Shown here one piece after another: positions 1 to 16,102 of a stretch of 64,000 nucleotides of DNA. Within the stretch, counting starts at the first letter, position 1, and every line of letters starts with the position of its first letter. The position numbers and the translations under genes are program-made. The notes beneath the pieces are model-generated. The model had not been told where the DNA came from. It saw nothing but the letters and a program-made list of their open reading frames with translations, and searched no databases. This DNA comes from Blautia schinkii DSM 10518 (GTDB lineage: Bacteria; Bacillota; Clostridia; Lachnospirales; Lachnospiraceae): NCBI GenBank assembly GCA_000702025.1, contig JNKJ01000020.1, positions 1 to 64,000 on the forward strand, given 5' to 3'.

Positions 1-327
1 CAGGCAGATGTAAGCTGGCTTGCGCCACATACATCTGGCCCATATCCAAGGAAACACCTGAAGACACCTGGGAAGGGCTTCGGCCATTTCAAGGTTCGAG
101 CTATCTACGATTCAACTATGTTGGCACAGATACCTGTGATCCACGCAATTAGACGGTAGAGCTCACGGCGAACCATTGTCCTGTCGGTAACCAATCCACG
201 TATATCAGAGTGGTCAATGCCGGGAACTGATACCCCGAAGCTCTTTCCAGATGTCTTCAGGAACAAATAAACAAAAAAGTTTGTGGTGATTTTCTGCAAT
301 TTACTCTTGACAAAAGTCATTACATAT
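1..327. other. Intergenic stretch, no gene recognised
   Basis: No reading frame here has both a ribosome binding site and recognisable protein content. The longest frame, minus strand 105-320, has no motif I recognise. An upstream gene or a decayed transposase remnant ending here cannot be excluded. Confidence 0.5.
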
Positions 328-3393: not shown

Positions 3394-4164
3394 TTATGAT
3401 ATTCTTCTCTTATAAATCTGGATTGAGAAAATATACGCTGCAATGGTAATTCCCAGACACCAGGCAAAAGCAATCCATAGGCTGTTGTTTAATGGCAGAT
3501 CAAGTGTCAAGGCCCGGAAACTGTCAATGATAGGGGTCATGGGCTGGATTTCTGCGAACCATTTCATACCGTGGTTCATAGAATCAACAGGGACGAAGCC
3601 TGAGCTGATGAAGGGTAAAATAAATAGCGGGAGCATAAGTCCGCTTGAACCCTCGACTGTTTTTGAAAGCAGTCCGCACATGACAGCAAGCAATGAAATT
3701 GCAATGTTTACAAAAATAAGTAGTCCGACAACCACAATCCAATCCGCAAAACTTCCCTTTGGCCGGAAGCCAAGAAGAAAGGCCGTACCAATGATCATGA
3801 TAGTTGAAACTGTATTTCTGACTACTCCTGCGCCGGCATGTCCAAACAGAATAGCAGTTTTAGAAATAGACATAGAGCGGAAACGGTCATTGATTCCCTT
3901 TGTCATGTCAGACGCCACATTCATGGCAGAATATTGCGAGGACTGACCAATACTCTGCAGGATAATGCCCGGCACAATGAAATCTATATAGTTCAGATTT
4001 TCTACATTTGCAATTTTTCCAAATACAGTTCCAAATAAAAACATTAATAAAAACGGCACGATTGTCGCTACCAGAAGTGCTTCGGGATTCCGCAGAGAGA
4101 TAAGTAAACAACGTTTAAACATGATCCACGAGTCGGAGATGATACTTGTTTTTACTTTAAACAT
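3394..4164 (-). CDS. ABC-2 type exporter permease (DrrB-like)
   Basis: Membrane subunit (256 aa) of a drug or lipid exporter. It has about six hydrophobic segments typical of ABC-2 permeases, beginning ALLVATIVPFLLMFLFGTVF. The region around residues 60-90 (FIVPGIILQSIGQSSQYSAM) and the loop with FRSMSISKTAILFGH match the DrrB/ABC2_membrane style. It starts one base after the stop of the ATPase gene, with AAGGAGG inside the end of that gene, so the two are probably translationally coupled. The substrate is unknown; the TetR gene upstream suggests an inducible toxic compound. Confidence 0.85.
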   Translation of the reverse strand: MFKVKTSIISDSWIMFKRCLLISLRNPEALLVATIVPFLLMFLFGTVFGKIANVENLNYIDFIVPGIILQSIGQSSQYSAMNVASDMTKGINDRFRSMSISKTAILFGHAGAGVVRNTVSTIMIIGTAFLLGFRPKGSFADWIVVVGLLIFVNIAISLLAVMCGLLSKTVEGSSGLMLPLFILPFISSGFVPVDSMNHGMKWFAEIQPMTPIIDSFRALTLDLPLNNSLWIAFAWCLGITIAAYIFSIQIYKRRIS

Positions 4165-4165
4165 G

Positions 4166-5011
4166 TTAGATGGCCTCCTTATTTTCTTTAATTAAGGTTA
4201 AAAAAACATCTTCTAAAGAGGGCAGATTTGGCTCAATGCTCTCAACAGAAATCCCCTCTTTAGTTAAAAGTTCCATTGCGTTTTCGGCTTGTTTTTCGGT
4301 CTGGAAATTTAGCTGAGCGCCCCGTCCTGGTATGATTTCTTTAAGATATTGCGGTGTACCTTCAATGAGAATTTCGCCGTTATGAAGAATCGCAACATTG
4401 TCAGCCAGATATTCCGCTTCTTCTAAATATTGTGTAGTGAGAAGCACAGTAGTTCCTTGCTTAGCTAAGTTCTTTACTAATTCCCACATGATGATGCGAT
4501 TCTGCGGGTCAAGTCCTGTTGTGGGCTCGTCGAGGAAAAGAACCTGCGGTTGAACCATAAGGCTCATGGCGATATCGAGTCTGCGTCTCATACCGCCGGA
4601 ATAAGTGGATACTCTTTGTGCAGCCGCGTCTTGTAAATCAAAAAAGGATAGCCATCCCTCTGTTTTTCTTTTGACATCAGGCAGACGTATGAGCTGGCCG
4701 ATAAGATTTAAATTTTCTCTGCCTGTCAGGACTTCATCTACTGCTGTGAATTGTCCTGTCAGACTGATACACCTCCGTACAAGTTCTTCCTGATATACTA
4801 CATCAAAATCGTTAATGGAAATCTTACCCCCATCAGGTTTTAATAAAGTGGATAGTATTTTGACAATTGTGGTTTTACCTGCACCGTTAGAGCCTAATAG
4901 CGCGTAGATGGTACCGCTGGGAACAGTGAAATTCACGTCTTTCAGCACTTCTTTGTTCTTATAGCTTTTCCGTAACCCTGAAACGGAAATGGATATAGTT
5001 TGCTTTGCCAC
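4166..5011 (-). CDS. ABC exporter ATP-binding protein (DrrA-like)
   Basis: ATPase of 281 aa powering the permease encoded next. Walker A is LLGSNGAGKTTIVKIL, the signature is YSGGMRRRLDIAMSL, Walker B is VLFLDEPTTGLDP, and the H-loop region reads TTQYLEEAEYLADNVAIL with Gln where many ABC proteins have His, as in DrrA-type proteins. The C-terminal part (LEDVFLTLIKE) is the DrrA-type extension. Translation most likely starts at GTG 5011, preceded by AGGAGG with seven-base spacing. An inverted repeat at 5042-5062 is a probable operator for the TetR protein encoded upstream. Confidence 0.9.
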   Translation of the reverse strand: MAKQTISISVSGLRKSYKNKEVLKDVNFTVPSGTIYALLGSNGAGKTTIVKILSTLLKPDGGKISINDFDVVYQEELVRRCISLTGQFTAVDEVLTGRENLNLIGQLIRLPDVKRKTEGWLSFFDLQDAAAQRVSTYSGGMRRRLDIAMSLMVQPQVLFLDEPTTGLDPQNRIIMWELVKNLAKQGTTVLLTTQYLEEAEYLADNVAILHNGEILIEGTPQYLKEIIPGRGAQLNFQTEKQAENAMELLTKEGISVESIEPNLPSLEDVFLTLIKENKEAI

Positions 5012-6025: not shown

Positions 6026-6892
6026 TCATTTATCTTGAGGATCATGGATATGCACATCTAGCTGATTGTACGGTATTGCGATTCCCTGGGCGTCAAATTC
6101 TTCCTTTATACGCTGGTTGAGCCGCCACTTGGCAGGCCAGTAGCTTTCTGTAGGTACCCATACACGAAGCCCCATGATTACGGAGCTTTCTGCCAGCTCA
6201 TCCACGAAAACCACCATTTCTTCGTCGCTCTGGGTATCAGGGTCCTCTTTTAAAAGGCCTTCGAGTATCGCTTTGGCCTTGTGTATATCCGAGTCATAGG
6301 AGATGCCTACTTTGATTTCAAGCTTGCGGCGGTCCCGGGCAGTCACATTGATGATTGTGCTGTTGGAAAGAGTACCGTTGGGGATTACAATGTGTTTATT
6401 ATCCACAGAGAGCAGGGTGGTATAGCAGATCTCAATTTTGAATACTGTGCCTTCACATCCGGTCTGCTGGTTCTGGATGATATAGTCGCCTACCTGGAAA
6501 GGCTTAAACAACAAAAGCATCATTCCTCCGGCTACATTTGCCAGACCACCCTGCAGCGCCAGACCGATGGTGACGCCGGCTGTTCCGAGAAGTGCGGCTA
6601 CGGAGGATTCCTTCACGCCAAAGCTGGTGGAGATGTTAAAAATCAGTAAGGCATATAATAGAAATTTTGAGAGCGAAGCTGCAAACTGGATGACTCCCCG
6701 GTCTACATTTGCCCGCTCTAAAGAACGCCGCATTAGGTTTAGCAGCCATTTAATCACTTTTTGACCTACATAGAAAATTACAATTGCCAGAACCACTTTA
6801 AGACAGAATTGCGTCACTGCCGGAAGCTGGTCAGATAAATATTTCTGCAGTTTATTTACATTTTCTTCTAATTCCTGTACACTTTCTTCCAA
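6026..6892 (-). CDS. MscS-family mechanosensitive channel
   Basis: Small-conductance mechanosensitive channel subunit of 288 aa, the usual length. Membrane helices lie in the first about 120 residues (FCLKVVLAIVIFYVGQKVI; LLYALLIFNISTSFGV), followed by the glycine/alanine-rich pore helix (ALLGTAGVTIGLALQGGLAN) and the beta domain (FKPFQVGDYI, then IPNGTLSNSTIINVT). It would release solutes on hypo-osmotic shock. Single-gene unit on the minus strand with the hairpin at 5929-5970 downstream. Confidence 0.93.
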   Translation of the reverse strand: MEESVQELEENVNKLQKYLSDQLPAVTQFCLKVVLAIVIFYVGQKVIKWLLNLMRRSLERANVDRGVIQFAASLSKFLLYALLIFNISTSFGVKESSVAALLGTAGVTIGLALQGGLANVAGGMMLLLFKPFQVGDYIIQNQQTGCEGTVFKIEICYTTLLSVDNKHIVIPNGTLSNSTIINVTARDRRKLEIKVGISYDSDIHKAKAILEGLLKEDPDTQSDEEMVVFVDELAESSVIMGLRVWVPTESYWPAKWRLNQRIKEEFDAQGIAIPYNQLDVHIHDPQDK

Positions 6893-7454: not shown

Positions 7455-8381
7455 ATGCAGGAAAACAGCCACATTAGTACAAAGGAAGAGAACCATAGTC
7501 AGGTTTCTACAAATGAAAAAATCAATGACGGGACGAAGGTTTACAGACAGACCGAGGATGCCGTTCTGAAAGCAGCCGCACAGTTTTTCGGGGAAGAGCT
7601 CTTTCCGTATCTGGGGATTGACGAAAAGCCTTTGGGGGTGTGTCCCACAGAGATGGTCCATCTGGAGATAAGGAAGATGTATGAGGATTTTAACTTTCTT
7701 ATGAACGAGGACCGTTGGTATCATCTTGAGTTTGAAAGTGACAGAATTACAAAAGACGATTTGAAACGTTTCCGCGAATATGAGGCTGTTACAAGCCGTA
7801 CATATGGGGTTGCGGTGACTACGATTGTAGTATGTTCTTCCAAAGTCAAGAACCAGATGTCAGAAATTACAGAAGGCTTGAATACTTATAGGGTGAAAGT
7901 AGTACGTCTGAAGGAAATGGACGCAGGCTCGGTTTTGGAAAAGCTTTCTGCCAAAGGAGCGGAACGAGTCGAGAGGGAGGACCTGGTTCCGCTGCTTCTC
8001 ACACCACTCATGGGTGGCGGTATGCCGGAAAAGGAGAGAATCCGAAAGGGCTTTGAATGGCTGAAAAGAGATTATCCCCGTATCTGTCAGGAGGATATAC
8101 GAAAGATGCAGGCGGTTTTATATGCACTAGCCGCGAAGTTTTTGACACAAAGGGATTTGGATGTATTAAAGGAGGAGATTGCAATGACTTTATTAGGACA
8201 GATGCTCATGGAGGATGGAATTAAGAAAGGCAGGATTGAGGGCAGAGAGGAAGGCACACAGGAGGGAATTCGGCTTACGAAGGAAGTCTGGAAGCTTTCG
8301 GCTCAGGGTAAGGCTCCGGAATCTATTGCCAAGGCCCTCGATATTTCTTATGAAATGGTATGCAGTATTCTGGAGGAATAA
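7455..8381 (+). CDS. Rpn-like PD-(D/E)XK nuclease/transposase family protein, copy 1
   Basis: 308 aa. The middle segment HLEFESDRITKDDLKRFREY followed by GVAVTTIVVCS has the layout of the PD-(D/E)XK core of Rpn/YhgA-type recombination-promoting nucleases. The C-terminus has glycine-glutamate runs (GRIEGREEGTQEGIR), a hallmark of that group, and ends in a helical segment with SIAKALDISYEMVCSILEE, like a short helix-turn-helix. ATG 7455 follows AAAGGAGGT. A paralog with the same upstream region lies at 10,924. Nuclease activity is inferred; the exact catalytic residues are not certain from sequence alone. Confidence 0.6.
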   Translation: MQENSHISTKEENHSQVSTNEKINDGTKVYRQTEDAVLKAAAQFFGEELFPYLGIDEKPLGVCPTEMVHLEIRKMYEDFNFLMNEDRWYHLEFESDRITKDDLKRFREYEAVTSRTYGVAVTTIVVCSSKVKNQMSEITEGLNTYRVKVVRLKEMDAGSVLEKLSAKGAERVEREDLVPLLLTPLMGGGMPEKERIRKGFEWLKRDYPRICQEDIRKMQAVLYALAAKFLTQRDLDVLKEEIAMTLLGQMLMEDGIKKGRIEGREEGTQEGIRLTKEVWKLSAQGKAPESIAKALDISYEMVCSILEE

Positions 8382-10923: not shown

Positions 10924-11898
10924 ATGCAGGAAAACAGTTATGTGAAAACAAATGAGAAAATCGAAAGCCAGTTTTATGCAAATGAAAAAAAGGACAGCGG
11001 GACGGATGTTTACAGCCAGACCGAGGATGCGGTCTTAAAGGTGGCGGCGCAGTTCTTTGGGGAGGAGTTATTTCCTTATCTGGGGATTGATGAGAAGCCG
11101 TTAGGGGTGTGTCCCACAGAAGTGGTCCATTTGGAAATTAAAAAAATGTATGAGGATTTTAATTTTCTCATGGAAGGGAACCGCTGGTATCACCTTGAGT
11201 TTGAAAGTGACAGAATCACGAAAGAGGATTTGAAACGTTTCCGTGAATATGAGGCTGTGACAAGCCGAACATATGGGGTTGCGGTGACAACGATTGTGGT
11301 GTGTTCCTCCAGGGTCGGGAGCCGGATGTCTGAATTTACCGAGGGTCTGAATACGTATAGGGTAAAGGTTGTCCAACTCAGGGATATGGATGCGGATACC
11401 GTTTTGGATAGACTTTCCGCGAAAGGGATTGAGATGGTCAGAAAAGAAGATCTGGTACCCTTGGCCCTTACCCCTCTGATGGGTGGAAACATGCCGGAGA
11501 AGGATAGGATACGAAAGAGCTTTGACTGGTTGAAAAGGGACTATCCAGGCATTGCCCGGGAGGATATACAAAAGATGCAGGCGGTATTATATGCACTGGC
11601 CGTGAAGTTTTTGACACAGAAAGATTTAAATGTATTAAAGGAGGAGATTGCAATGACTATATTAGGACAGATGCTCATGGAGGACGGAATTAAGAAGGGC
11701 AGGATTGAGGGCAGAGAGGAAGGGATGCAAGAAGGCATACAAATGGGCAGAGAGGAAGGCATACAAGAGGGCACACAAGAAGGAATACGGCTTACGAAAG
11801 AAGTTTTGAAGCTTTCTGCAAAAGGCCAGACCCCGGAAGCGATTGCCGAGGCGATGAATGTTTCTTATGAAATAGTATGCGGTATTCTGGCGGATTGA
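10924..11898 (+). CDS. Rpn-like PD-(D/E)XK nuclease/transposase family protein, copy 2
   Basis: 324 aa paralog of the 7455-8381 product, nearly identical through the HLEFESDRITKEDLKRFREY core and most of the C-terminal half, more divergent in the first 30 residues. It is exactly 16 aa longer because the glycine-glutamate tail is expanded (EGMQEGIQMGREEGIQEG) at 11,725-11,780, a slippage or unequal-crossover product. The end reads EAIAEAMNVSYEIVCGILAD, the same helical tail. Activity is inferred from family resemblance only. Confidence 0.6.
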   Translation: MQENSYVKTNEKIESQFYANEKKDSGTDVYSQTEDAVLKVAAQFFGEELFPYLGIDEKPLGVCPTEVVHLEIKKMYEDFNFLMEGNRWYHLEFESDRITKEDLKRFREYEAVTSRTYGVAVTTIVVCSSRVGSRMSEFTEGLNTYRVKVVQLRDMDADTVLDRLSAKGIEMVRKEDLVPLALTPLMGGNMPEKDRIRKSFDWLKRDYPGIAREDIQKMQAVLYALAVKFLTQKDLNVLKEEIAMTILGQMLMEDGIKKGRIEGREEGMQEGIQMGREEGIQEGTQEGIRLTKEVLKLSAKGQTPEAIAEAMNVSYEIVCGILAD

Positions 11899-13018: not shown

Positions 13019-13077
13019 GAACTAATTAGATGAAATTCTAAATAGGTGGGGAGGGGGACCCCCGGAAAGGGTTGAAC

Positions 13078-13291
13078 GGTAAGGAGAAAAAAATTTGGCG
13101 CGGAGGAGCTGGCGCTGGTCTTGTCAGGCATTGCTCGCTTGCCTTCAACTAATTGCCAACTGCGACTAAAGCGCTCAAGAAGAGCTTTCGCGCTTAAGTC
13201 TCCGTAGGCAATGGATTTTCAGGCGCGCTTCCGCAAAATGCCTGACAAGACCAGCGCCAGCTCCTCCGCGCCAAATTTTCTTCTCCTTACC
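13078..13291. repeat. Long palindromic intergenic element A
   Basis: Arms of 55 bp at 13,078-13,132 and 13,237-13,291 are nearly perfect inverted copies (each holds GCGCGGAGGAGCTGGCGCTG or its complement) around a 104-bp core. The core carries, in inverted form, the AGTTGGCAATTAGTTGAAGG and TCCGTAGGCAATGGATTTTC modules that also occur in element B. The left flank holds GACCCCCGGAAAGGGTTGAA, shared in inverted form by the right ends of element B and the half element at 328-430. Confidence 0.8.
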
Positions 13292-13714
13292 TTCCTCTAC
13301 GTTTCCATCCCCCTCCGTGACGGTTGTGGCTTTTGCCGGTAGATTTATGAAGTATGGGAAGTACCAGTCTTAGAAATGTCTGTTTTAAAATGGCTGGGAA
13401 GGTAGTGTATTAACTTGTATATAAACAGGGGACGGATTTGTAAGGATGTCCCAAAAGTGGGGGACTACACTAATTCAAGTGTCCACTGTTATGGAGACAT
13501 TATAACATATTCAGAAAAACATGAAATCGACTATACTAGCACAGCATTGCATAAATCCCAGTGAATTCTGCGCCCGTCGTCCGTGTAGATATTGCTGCAA
13601 TAGAAGCCATTGCCACATTAAGCAGATCATTATATTGTTTCGCAAGTACAGTAGAACACTATAACCGCATACCTTACCGCTATTCATTAACTATCGGTGA
13701 AAGCTACGAGCCGT
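13292..13714. other. Intergenic, no gene recognised
   Basis: Between the two palindromic elements. The open frame at 13,561-13,812 has no ribosome site, begins at a non-ATG codon and runs into the repeat arm, so I do not call it. The segment around 13,600-13,715 may be a decayed gene but no family is recognisable. Confidence 0.4.
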
Positions 13715-14140
13715 ACCGAAGGGGTGGGAACGTAGTGGTAGGTGCCGGGGAGGGATTTGGGGGCGGGAGGCGTCTTTGCGTGGACGGGCTGATTTTGCGG
13801 AAGCGCGCCTGAAAATCCATTGCCTACGGAGACTTAGCGTACTGCCCGGTTTATCTCTGGTGAAAATCCGAAGGATAATTTTTCATCGGCAAGGCGGCTG
13901 AATGAGTCGATGCGGTGGTATCGGCGATTGAAGCCAACGAAGTCCGATGGGAAATTAGACAAGGATTTTCACCAGAGATAAACCGGGCAGTGCGCTCAGC
14001 GCGAACGCTCTTCGTGAGCGGCTTAGTCGCAGTTGGCAATTAGTTGAAGGGAAGCGAGCAATCAGCCCGTCCACGCAAACACGCCTCCCGCCCCCAAATC
14101 CCTCCCCGGCACCGTTCAACACCTTCCCGGGGCCCCCTTT
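13715..14140. repeat. Long palindromic intergenic element B
   Basis: Outer arms 13,741-13,793 and 14,060-14,113 are near-perfect inverted copies (GGGGGCGGGAGGCGT near the left arm, its complement on the right). The arm sequence is unrelated to that of element A, while the core modules (CTGAAAATCCATTGCCTACG; GCAGTTGGCAATTAGTTGAA) and the right flank (CGTTCAACACCTTCCCGGGG) are shared. A second palindrome is nested in its loop. Confidence 0.8.
13841..13991. repeat. Nested 29-bp perfect inverted repeat inside element B
   Basis: 13,841-13,869 (ACTGCCCGGTTTATCTCTGG and on) and 13,963-13,991 are perfect inverted copies around a 93-base centre. It is absent from element A, where the core is continuous, so it looks like an insertion or exchange of the loop. 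Confidence 0.75.
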
Positions 14141-14300: not shown

Positions 14301-14491
14301 AAGCTCAAGTTAAGGCAAAGTATTTTTTATGATAATGCAAAGGGGCATGTAAATATAAAGGTATCTCCAAGGAGAAGTTTTAATTTCACATTGCAAAGAG
14401 GCAGAGCGTAAAGAATACTTTTTTTGTACTTAAAATTAACCACGTAATTGTTACTAATGAACAACTTTTTTTGAGAAAGGAAGAAAAAACT

Positions 14492-16102
14492 ATGAAAAAG
14501 TACAGAAAACTTTTAGCCGCAGTTCTTGCCGGCGCTATGACGGTCGCTATGAGTGCCGGAGTGCAGGCAGCCGCAGAGGACGGCTACATTGTTAAAGCCA
14601 CCAACACCGAAGCGAAATCAAGCGACAATGACTTTGTGATCGCCATCGAAGGAAGCGTAAGCTCCATGGACCCGGCAAACATCCCGGATACCAGCGCTAT
14701 CTCCGCAACCCGTGGTGTTTACGAAAACCTGGTGCAGTTTAATGAGGACCAGGAAATCGTGGGACAGCTTGCAAAATCCTGGGAAGTATCCGACGATTCC
14801 CTTACATACACCTTTAAGCTTCAGGAGGGTGTGAAATTCCATGATGGAACAGACTTCAATTCCGCAGCCATTAAAGCAAACTATGACCGTGTAGTGGATG
14901 AGAAGAATAAACTCCGCCAGAGAAGAACCTTTATTGTTGCGCAAAACGACGGCACAGAGAAGGAGCGTGTGGCAAGCATCGAGACTCCGGATGATTATAC
15001 AGTTATCTTTACCTTAAGCGAACCATGGTCCCCGTTTATCAACCGCCTGACACAGTTCTGCATCATCAGCCCGGCAGCTCTTGAGGAGTACGGCAATGAT
15101 ATCATGAACCATCCGTGCGGAACCGGCCCGTACATCTGTACAGAGTGGGAAGAGGGCGACCATACCTCCTTCAAACGCAACGAGGATTACTGGGGAGAGA
15201 AACCAGGCGTAGACACCGTAACCATCAAAGAGGTTCCGGAGGCAGGTTCCCGTACCGCTATGCTGCAGACCGGCGAGGCAGACATGATCTACCCGACACC
15301 TGCAGACCAGATTGAGGCAATCAAATCTGTTGATGATGTAAACGTACTGACAGCAGATTCAAACATTATGAGATACGTAACCCTGAATATGGACCTTCCG
15401 GAACTTCAGGACCAGAAAGTGCGCCAGGCTATGAACTATGCCATCGACAAAGACGCATACATTGCCCTGATGTACTCCGGCAACGGAAAACCGGCAACCT
15501 CTATTGTACCTTCCATTATCGGCGGATATGAAGAGCAGACCCCATACACCTACGATGTGGAAAAAGCGAAAGAACTGATGAAAGAAGCAGGTTATGAAGA
15601 CGGCTTTAAGCTTACACTGTGGGGAGACAATACCACACAGGAGATCAAGGGCATGACCTTTGTGAAGCAGCAGCTTGCACAGATTGGTATTGAAGTAGAA
15701 GTAATGCCGATGGAGTCTGCAACAGTCAACGACAAGATTTATGTGGAAAAAGATGAAGCAGAAATCAATATGTGGTATGTAAACTGGTCCGCATCTGACT
15801 TTACCATGGACGGCTCTGTACGCTCCCTGCTGTACAGCACCATGTGTCCGCCTACCAGCGCCAACACCGCATATTACAACAATCCTGACTTTGATAAACT
15901 GTTAGACGAAGGACTTCACACCGCAGACCTGGAAGAGCAGGCGAAGGTATACAGCGAAGCACAGAAGATGGCTTGGGATGCTGCACCGTGGCTGTTCCTG
16001 GGCAATGACCAGATCATCTACTCCACAAAATCTTATGTTTCCGGCGTATATGTAGCACCGGACGGAGCGTTCAACTTCGCACATGCGCAGCTTGCACAGT
16101 GA
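14492..16102 (+). CDS. Family 5 ABC solute-binding protein (oligopeptide/glycan type)
   Basis: 536 aa extracytoplasmic binding protein of the DppA/OppA family (SBP_bac_5): VYENLVQFNEDQEIVGQLAK, LQEGVKFHDGTDF and VRQAMNYAIDKDAYI are typical family segments. It feeds substrate to the DppBCDF-type importer encoded next. I chose ATG 14,492 after GAAAGGAAG. The signal peptide (MKKYRKLLAAVLAGAMTVAM, ending AGVQA) has no cysteine and so no lipobox; most Gram-positive relatives are lipoproteins, so anchoring is unclear. The genes downstream suggest fucosylated glycans or glycopeptides as substrate, but family 5 proteins bind many ligands. Confidence 0.88.
   Translation: MKKYRKLLAAVLAGAMTVAMSAGVQAAAEDGYIVKATNTEAKSSDNDFVIAIEGSVSSMDPANIPDTSAISATRGVYENLVQFNEDQEIVGQLAKSWEVSDDSLTYTFKLQEGVKFHDGTDFNSAAIKANYDRVVDEKNKLRQRRTFIVAQNDGTEKERVASIETPDDYTVIFTLSEPWSPFINRLTQFCIISPAALEEYGNDIMNHPCGTGPYICTEWEEGDHTSFKRNEDYWGEKPGVDTVTIKEVPEAGSRTAMLQTGEADMIYPTPADQIEAIKSVDDVNVLTADSNIMRYVTLNMDLPELQDQKVRQAMNYAIDKDAYIALMYSGNGKPATSIVPSIIGGYEEQTPYTYDVEKAKELMKEAGYEDGFKLTLWGDNTTQEIKGMTFVKQQLAQIGIEVEVMPMESATVNDKIYVEKDEAEINMWYVNWSASDFTMDGSVRSLLYSTMCPPTSANTAYYNNPDFDKLLDEGLHTADLEEQAKVYSEAQKMAWDAAPWLFLGNDQIIYSTKSYVSGVYVAPDGAFNFAHAQLAQ

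Follow-up and report, generated by a model that had tools for sequence, protein, structure and literature searches.

Bacterial MITEs, or fold-back elements, are small and mobile; ERIC, RUP, Correia and NEMIS are examples. The attC sites of integrons are conserved in structure above stem sequence, their unpaired positions are conserved as well, and the integrase IntI recombines them at the folded bottom strand. Insertion in REP/RAYT systems is not known to leave a target duplication. Going by the summary parts of the papers cited, MITE-type elements of bacteria have been reviewed (PMC2229807), REP, BIME and REPIN sequences are described together with a RAYT transposase (PMC3116915, PMC8266576, PMC2817692, PMC3733652), and insertion sequences, IS110-type elements among them, are known to land in REPs (PMC1525189). 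By the same measure, IS110-type elements use an RNA of their own as guide (PMC11208160, PMC11187229), and template switching repairs inverted repeats and plays a role in compensatory changes (PMC8794818, PMC8604942, PMC7202029).

Here we analyze a family of hairpins in Blautia schinkii DSM 10518, starting from two palindromic elements, A and B, in the first 64,000 nucleotides of contig JNKJ01000020.1 (assembly GCA_000702025.1, forward strand). This whole stretch is called the window, and coordinates without a further label refer to it. A and B are probably genus-level fold-back (MITE-like) mobile elements that are mobilised in trans, with arms kept complementary by template-switch copying. The hairpin family is real and mobile and shows an unusual degree of arm co-evolution, which is best explained by occasional arm-to-arm copying.

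Elements in the window

Element A (13053–13310) is composed of an outer end, two arms, a core and an inner end. The outer end (END; 13053–13079, minus strand) fits the END pattern with three mismatches, and the 5′ arm (13078–13132) and 3′ arm (13237–13291), both on the plus strand and 55 nt long, are 98% complementary with 104 nt between them. The structured core (13133–13236, plus strand) reads CTAA-N5-AACTGCGACTAA ... GTA-N5'-TGGATTTTC. The inner end (INEND) and the conserved tail of A occupy 13289–13385 on the minus strand, with an approximate tail boundary drawn from the conserved sequence that follows INEND in paired as well as solo copies. Between A and B lies a spacer (13311–13721 with the tails counted in, no strand) that had no match in its own genome at the four of 209 candidate places that were scored.

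Element B (13722–14138) lies on the opposite strand to A. From left to right it consists of INEND (13722–13743, plus strand, no mismatch), the arm adjoining the spacer (13744–13795, minus strand), the core (13796–14058, minus strand), the outer arm (14059–14111, minus strand) and END (14112–14138, plus strand, one mismatch). The core is broken by a second palindromic repeat nested in its loop (13833–13999, no strand; arms 13833–13869 and 13963–13999). This nested repeat represents a second family, which occurs eight times at this loop position in the hairpins read, and its middle (~95 nt) matches genus genomes that have no first-family hit, such as G024, G013, G055 and G028.

A and B have in common an outer end of the GTTCAACACCTTCCCGGGG type (0–3 mismatches) and the rest of the core, and a 45-nt block is 100% identical between them (A 13195–13239, B 13792–13836), in agreement with the shared flank and core noted in the preliminary description. 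The same description called the arms of each element perfectly self-complementary and the two sets of arms unrelated. The B arms, taken over 69 nt (13726–13794 and 14060–14128), are 90% complementary, and the variable arm proper (~50 bp) holds one internal mismatch in A and one in B. Aligned to each other, the two sets of arms agree in 32 of 58 columns (55%); seen beside all the other copies, they have the appearance of homologues that have diverged, not of clearly unrelated sequences. RNA fold z-scores of A and B are −15.4 and −18.6, with 0 of 200 and 0 of 100 shuffles folding as well.

A solo half, placed earlier at 328–430, was confirmed as a real copy: partial core, one arm and an END starting at 401 cover 328–426 on the minus strand. 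Its core is cut by the non-coding end of an inserted IS110-like element (1–327, minus strand), whose family assignment comes from a diverged copy on contig C19. Elsewhere in the window, two closely similar ORFs of ~310–320 aa were seen at 7455–8381 and 10924–11898, neither of which reached the cut-off of any Pfam family.

Insertion sequences in the hairpin core

Six insertion-sequence ends were located, five of them identical and one with three mismatches, and all join the core right after CTTCAACT. The hairpins that received them have different arms (window 1–327 and loci L297–L302). Hits to PF02371 (E = 1.1e-15) and PF01548 (E = 1.8e-13) identify the transposase of the diverged copy as IS110-type, and the insert of this copy is flanked by CT on both sides; the interiors of the five identical copies lie outside the stretches read, and their family is inferred from the common non-coding end. 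The hairpin core is a landing site for an IS110-type element, REP-like in this respect and unrelated to REPs as a repeat. By eye, the non-coding end of both versions has AGTTGAA in common with the reverse complement of the target. It is possible that this motif is the guide of the IS110-like element, although a match of 7 nt could be chance. Two further insertion sequences seem to lie within a hairpin arm or core (L192, ~1737–2050; L184, ~1665–1978), the protein of the latter presumably resembling an ISL3 transposase.

Copies in the host genome

The preliminary description had suggested a genome-wide search with the core module, and this search was productive: AACTAA-N5-AACTGCGACTAA, allowing up to two mismatches, matched 148 places in the host genome (6.68 Mb, 65 contigs), against one for the reversed control. 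A lack of further copies, which the preliminary description had named as a refutation, is thereby clearly ruled out. The END pattern matched 99 places. Within 375 kb of host sequence, 170 units, whole or partial, were located; the unit is ~230 bp long and non-coding, and copies sit between ORFs in the pairs inspected. Among 63 cases of neighbouring units at most 2.5 kb apart, 44 are convergent (+ then −), 10 divergent and 9 same-strand, and convergent pairs hold 88 of the 170 units. Their usual form is END-hairpin-INEND-tail, a spacer, and the mirror image of this arrangement.

The 37 spacers range from 95 to 1017 bp and match one another only over 21–42 nt, within the tails adjoining INEND. 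Unpaired copies carry the same tail as paired ones, and a partner-end match was present near 7 of 53 of them, compared with 2 and 4 in controls; 16 of the 53 had less than 800 bp of downstream sequence. Mean arm identity was 0.585 between pair partners versus 0.609 with other copies (23 pairs, p = 0.16). Partners are therefore no more alike than other copies, which indicates that the pairs are not recent inverted duplications. END is at times tandemly duplicated with a period of ~35 bp (C12:50587–50641, C54:668–722 and C15:57742 in the host genome, G000).

Relatives

The core pattern, at up to three mismatches, was found in 11 of 64 genus genomes, the host included, with the lone hits in G029, G057 and G008 at control level (one control hit in 9 genomes). 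Clear families by number of core matches are those of G014 (31), G046 (26), G059 (19), G031 (5) and G006 (4); G040 gave one match by pattern and four cores on reading, and the single match of G004 was read. Related copies occur in eight other genomes examined, G059 and Blautia parvula among them. Public genome contigs yielded 14 matching stretches, 13 from the MAG S27M_St_58 and one from Blautia parvula NBRC 113351, in which 10 copies, including two convergent pairs, are carried on a complete chromosome.

Several single loci in relatives deserve mention. One B. parvula pair (L112, 5740–5920), read from the sequence, combines two core types: the right core is the standard one, and the left core is AGCTAA-CCTGC-TCCCATTTACTAA...TTAAGTAACTGGG-GCAGG-TGGATCT. 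At L121 of G059 (3480–4360), an array of repeat units of ~120–140 bp, recognised by eye, lies upstream of a peptide-binding protein gene whose ortholog is window 14471–16102. An element or remnant is also located just upstream of a similar ABC-F-type gene in the host (L200, ~1400; G000:C27:59545) and in G059 (L295, 1501–1562); the genes of the two species have a similar N-terminus and ABC_tran in each, consistent with an old common site or an insertion hot spot.

Transposition and the search for the enzyme

The hairpin of G059 is solo and young. Flush direct repeats of width 7 bound its copies: nine of 12 agree at at least six of seven bases, five of these exactly, and the remaining three comprise one exact 8-bp repeat and two copies that do not fit. 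None of 10,000 permutations reached the observed duplication total. These 7-bp target-site duplications identify the hairpin itself as the transposable unit, and we infer that its mover makes 7-bp duplications and is of the DDE type. The short deletion derivatives L274, L276, L281 and L295 of this genome retain both ends. Of the features expected of MITE-like elements, the family displays many dispersed short non-coding copies, joined in G059 by flush target-site duplications.

In the host genome, neither pairs nor single units yielded a target-site duplication. For pairs, the top-scoring offset (7/36) is the GGGGNCCCC palindrome of END itself, and the best scores of the single units (6/38 and 13/69) lie within the conserved end sequence. 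No clean empty site was found at the loci tried, where relatives were too distant or not syntenic.

Between two matching ends in G059, no transposase was found (30 of 52 end matches; 12 without a core, with one ORF each in nine). Neighbours of short complete palindromes in that genome include a PDDEXK_2 'nuclease family transposase' and an IstB/DnaA-like ATPase. The orphan ENDs of the host genome likewise gave no transposase family (one inward ORF for 10 of 14). The Y1 transposase family PF01797 has no match in G059 or G014, two fragments in the host and one weak hit in G046; in copy-poor genomes it is represented by 14 (G004), 3 (G031) and 1 (G040) matches, and it occurs in many genomes without copies. 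A REP/RAYT mechanism was rejected on the 7-bp duplications of G059 and this pattern of Y1 matches, none in G059 and G014 and only fragments in the host.

How the arms vary

Arms pair within copies at 6647 of 6947 positions (95.7%) in 117 host hairpins, 19 of which are perfect; 13 of 130 copies with arms below 20 positions were left out of this count. Between copies, median arm identity is 62% (1500 random pairs). Pairing in seven other genomes covers 910 of 979 positions. G–T and A–C mismatches in the arms are balanced in the host (61 vs 73, p = 0.34), in G059 (23 vs 26, p = 0.78) and in the seven others (18 vs 21), which argues against selection on an RNA from one strand, as such selection would favour its wobble pair.

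Arms of ~43 to 66 nt are matched in length as well. The 5′ arm minus the 3′ arm gives −1 to −4 in 97 of the 99 copies within 25 nt of the median, with two outliers at −31 and +23, and the spread of this difference is below that of all 5000 permutations. This permutation spread is the fair test, because a separate arm-length correlation kept 97 of 108 copies by a length filter that alone raises the correlation. In 30 disjoint nearest pairs of copies, paired changes comprised 76 transitions and 90 transversions and unpaired changes 42 transitions and 16 transversions, and 53 indel columns were mirrored versus 40 one-armed. The arms thus display the transversion-rich paired changes and mirrored indels by which template switching was to be recognised. 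The arm exchange proposed in the preliminary description, if taken as wholesale, does not describe this pattern: across the many copies, divergence of the arms takes the form of paired base changes and of indels mirrored between the two arms.

The younger copies of G059 were analyzed separately (12 of 13 copies; the divergent copy L160 was dropped). Here mismatches affect 56 of 623 arm cells (9.0%) at a between-copy divergence of 11.7%, and unpaired changes account for 66 cells versus 10 paired, 20 of the 66 stemming from two column pairs whose sides have different majorities. Pairing, at 567 cells, still exceeds every one of 2000 permutations (maximum 560). Two arm mismatches are common to seven of the 12 copies, indicating that elements with imperfect arms transpose and that transposition itself does not repair arms, and the excess of unpaired changes implies that copying is not frequent on a short time scale. 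Arm copying is therefore occasional and would probably take place during replication. Copying of one arm from the other, already suggested in the preliminary description, emerges as the best-supported explanation, short of proof, on the strength of paired transversions, mirrored indels and balanced mismatches.

The N5 core stem

The five-base N5 stem of the core has 23 allele combinations in 130 host copies, 15 of them fully paired. It pairs at 616 of 650 positions, against a shuffled maximum of 61.4%, and its 34 exceptions are T–C (30) and C–C (4), with no G–T or A–C. In 44 cores from eight relatives, among them G014, G040, G046 and G059, N5 mismatches are A–C or C–A in 16 cases, G–T in none and others in six; G059 accounts for ten of the 16, and these reflect common descent, which inflates the count. 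Read on the opposite strand, the A–C mismatches of the relatives become G–U, and the host T–C become G–A beside an internal loop, two kinds of pair that would suit an RNA. A wobble bias is thus absent from the arms and from the host N5 stem and present in the N5 stem of the relatives (16:0), where it weakens the copying reading and strengthens the case for an RNA. The core may be an RNA read from the opposite strand, even with arms kept by copying. Rfam gave no family at gathering score in the window; hits below threshold were to two microRNA precursor models and one CRISPR repeat model.

Discussion

The mechanism that we favour takes as its unit a hairpin of ~230 bp with outer arms of ~50 bp and a core of short stems with conserved internal loops. 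The host version bears additional outer and inner end sequences and is often arranged as a convergent inverted pair. Spread would be by a transposase acting in trans, with target-site duplications found only for the related solo form of G059. Replication at the hairpin would now and then switch template and rewrite one arm from the other; a new base, gain or loss in one arm would then be either erased or copied to the second arm. Selection for recognition, whether of DNA or of RNA, would preserve the non-complementary core loops. Several results weigh against this mechanism: the A–C bias in the N5 stem of the relatives, the excess of unpaired changes in G059, the failure to find a transposase with matching ends among the ORFs scanned, and, in the host, the lack of target-site duplications and of a clean empty site at the loci tried. 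In a more far-reaching version, recognition would depend on the three-dimensional shape that the hairpin core adopts, with loops fixed and arms and stems free to be rewritten by copying; this version is in our view doubtful. If it is true, each copy would be sequence-unique yet functional, and the left and right hairpins of a pair would not cross-pair.

Pairing might instead be kept through compensatory mutations in a functional RNA, perhaps of the opposite strand. Several stems covary, internal loops are conserved, fold z-scores are strong, and on the opposite strand the 16:0 bias in the N5 stem of the relatives becomes G–U pairing and the 30 host T–C become G–A near the loop. Arguing against this reading, the arms have no wobble strand bias (61:73, 23:26 and 18:21) and the host N5 stem has no wobble at all, nearest pairs hold more paired transversions than paired transitions, indels are mirrored, and no Rfam family reaches gathering score; we therefore consider it unlikely as an account of the whole hairpin. 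Selection rather than copying would also keep the arms paired if the element were a folded single-stranded DNA known by its shape, like attC or REP. The balanced G–T and A–C arm mismatches would suit DNA, as would stems that vary around fixed loops, but the 7-bp target-site duplications speak for a double-strand (DDE-type) mechanism of transposition, seven of 12 G059 copies moved despite two arm mismatches, the Y1 transposase is unmatched in G059 and G014 with two fragments in the host, and mirrored indels are hard to obtain by selection alone. These points make a single-stranded, shape-known element distinctly improbable. Strong selection on both strands of a DNA hairpin could be the source of part of the arm pattern, which tells against copying as its only source.

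The remaining readings have very little weight. The preliminary description raised the possibility that copies sit at gene ends and act as terminators, and by eye some ENDs do seem to begin right behind a stop codon. Among 33 assignable pairs, however, flanking ORFs are tandem in 20, divergent in 11 and convergent in only 2, the flanking gene being the longest ORF per side rather than an annotated one and the counts standing without a computed genome-wide expectation; six contig-start pairs with wrong left flanks had been dropped from the '++' class, leaving 38, of which five were unassigned. Transcription terminators or other gene-end punctuation are very improbable on this gene context, and such a role was rejected. 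Parvovirus-type rolling-hairpin replication, which also copies one arm from the other, would explain inverted terminal hairpins around a unique middle, but under this model the asymmetric core should occur both ways round with respect to the ends. In 130 copies, the core has END on its 5′ side in 117 and INEND on its 3′ side in 9 more, is swapped in one (C19_105163) and has neither end in three. This near-uniform orientation, with one of 130 clearly swapped, led us to reject rolling-hairpin replication, to which we attach hardly any probability. Many contigs end inside copies, as an assembly artefact would have it, yet complete copies lie within contigs with distinct flanks and others within the complete B. 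parvula chromosome. An artefact, which the preliminary description had named as a possible refutation, is refuted for the whole family and has next to no probability left.

Template-switch copying in a trans-mobilised element, the reading that we prefer, touches on the open question of whether hairpins stay paired by slow compensatory mutation or by arm-to-arm copying. One genome offers more than 100 hairpins of the same family, in which indels are mirrored and transversions paired; its relatives offer younger copies with recognisable insertion sites; a strain comparison in such a bacterium could measure compensation against copying directly. The same hairpins constitute a precise landing site for an insertion sequence of the IS110 type, an RNA-guided family.

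Searches of the open-licence literature, judged by titles and abstract openings, gave no description of the hairpin family, and the known systems resemble it in part. Like MITEs, it is short, non-coding, palindromic, high in copy number and mostly intergenic, with flush duplications in the G059 form. Unlike them, it has a multi-stem core with fixed internal loops, arms that diverge in step, and convergent pairs around differing spacers, with no parent element found. With REP and BIME sequences it shares high-copy extragenic hairpins, often in inverted pairs, and a landing site of the IS110 type, whereas its unit of ~230 bp contrasts with the 20–40 bp of REPs. As in attC, structure is kept over stem sequence and unpaired positions are conserved, but the duplications are of the double-strand type and the arrangement is inverted, not direct. 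A parallel in the behaviour of the arms is quasipalindrome correction, in which one arm is likewise rewritten from the other with multi-base paired changes. Template-switch homogenisation of inverted repeats has been published, as far as the summary of that paper indicates (PMC8794818), and the mode of evolution is accordingly not new in principle. What is new here is its scale and setting: unlike the published template-switch cases, the arms are ~50 bp long, and the mobile family to which they belong has over 100 copies.
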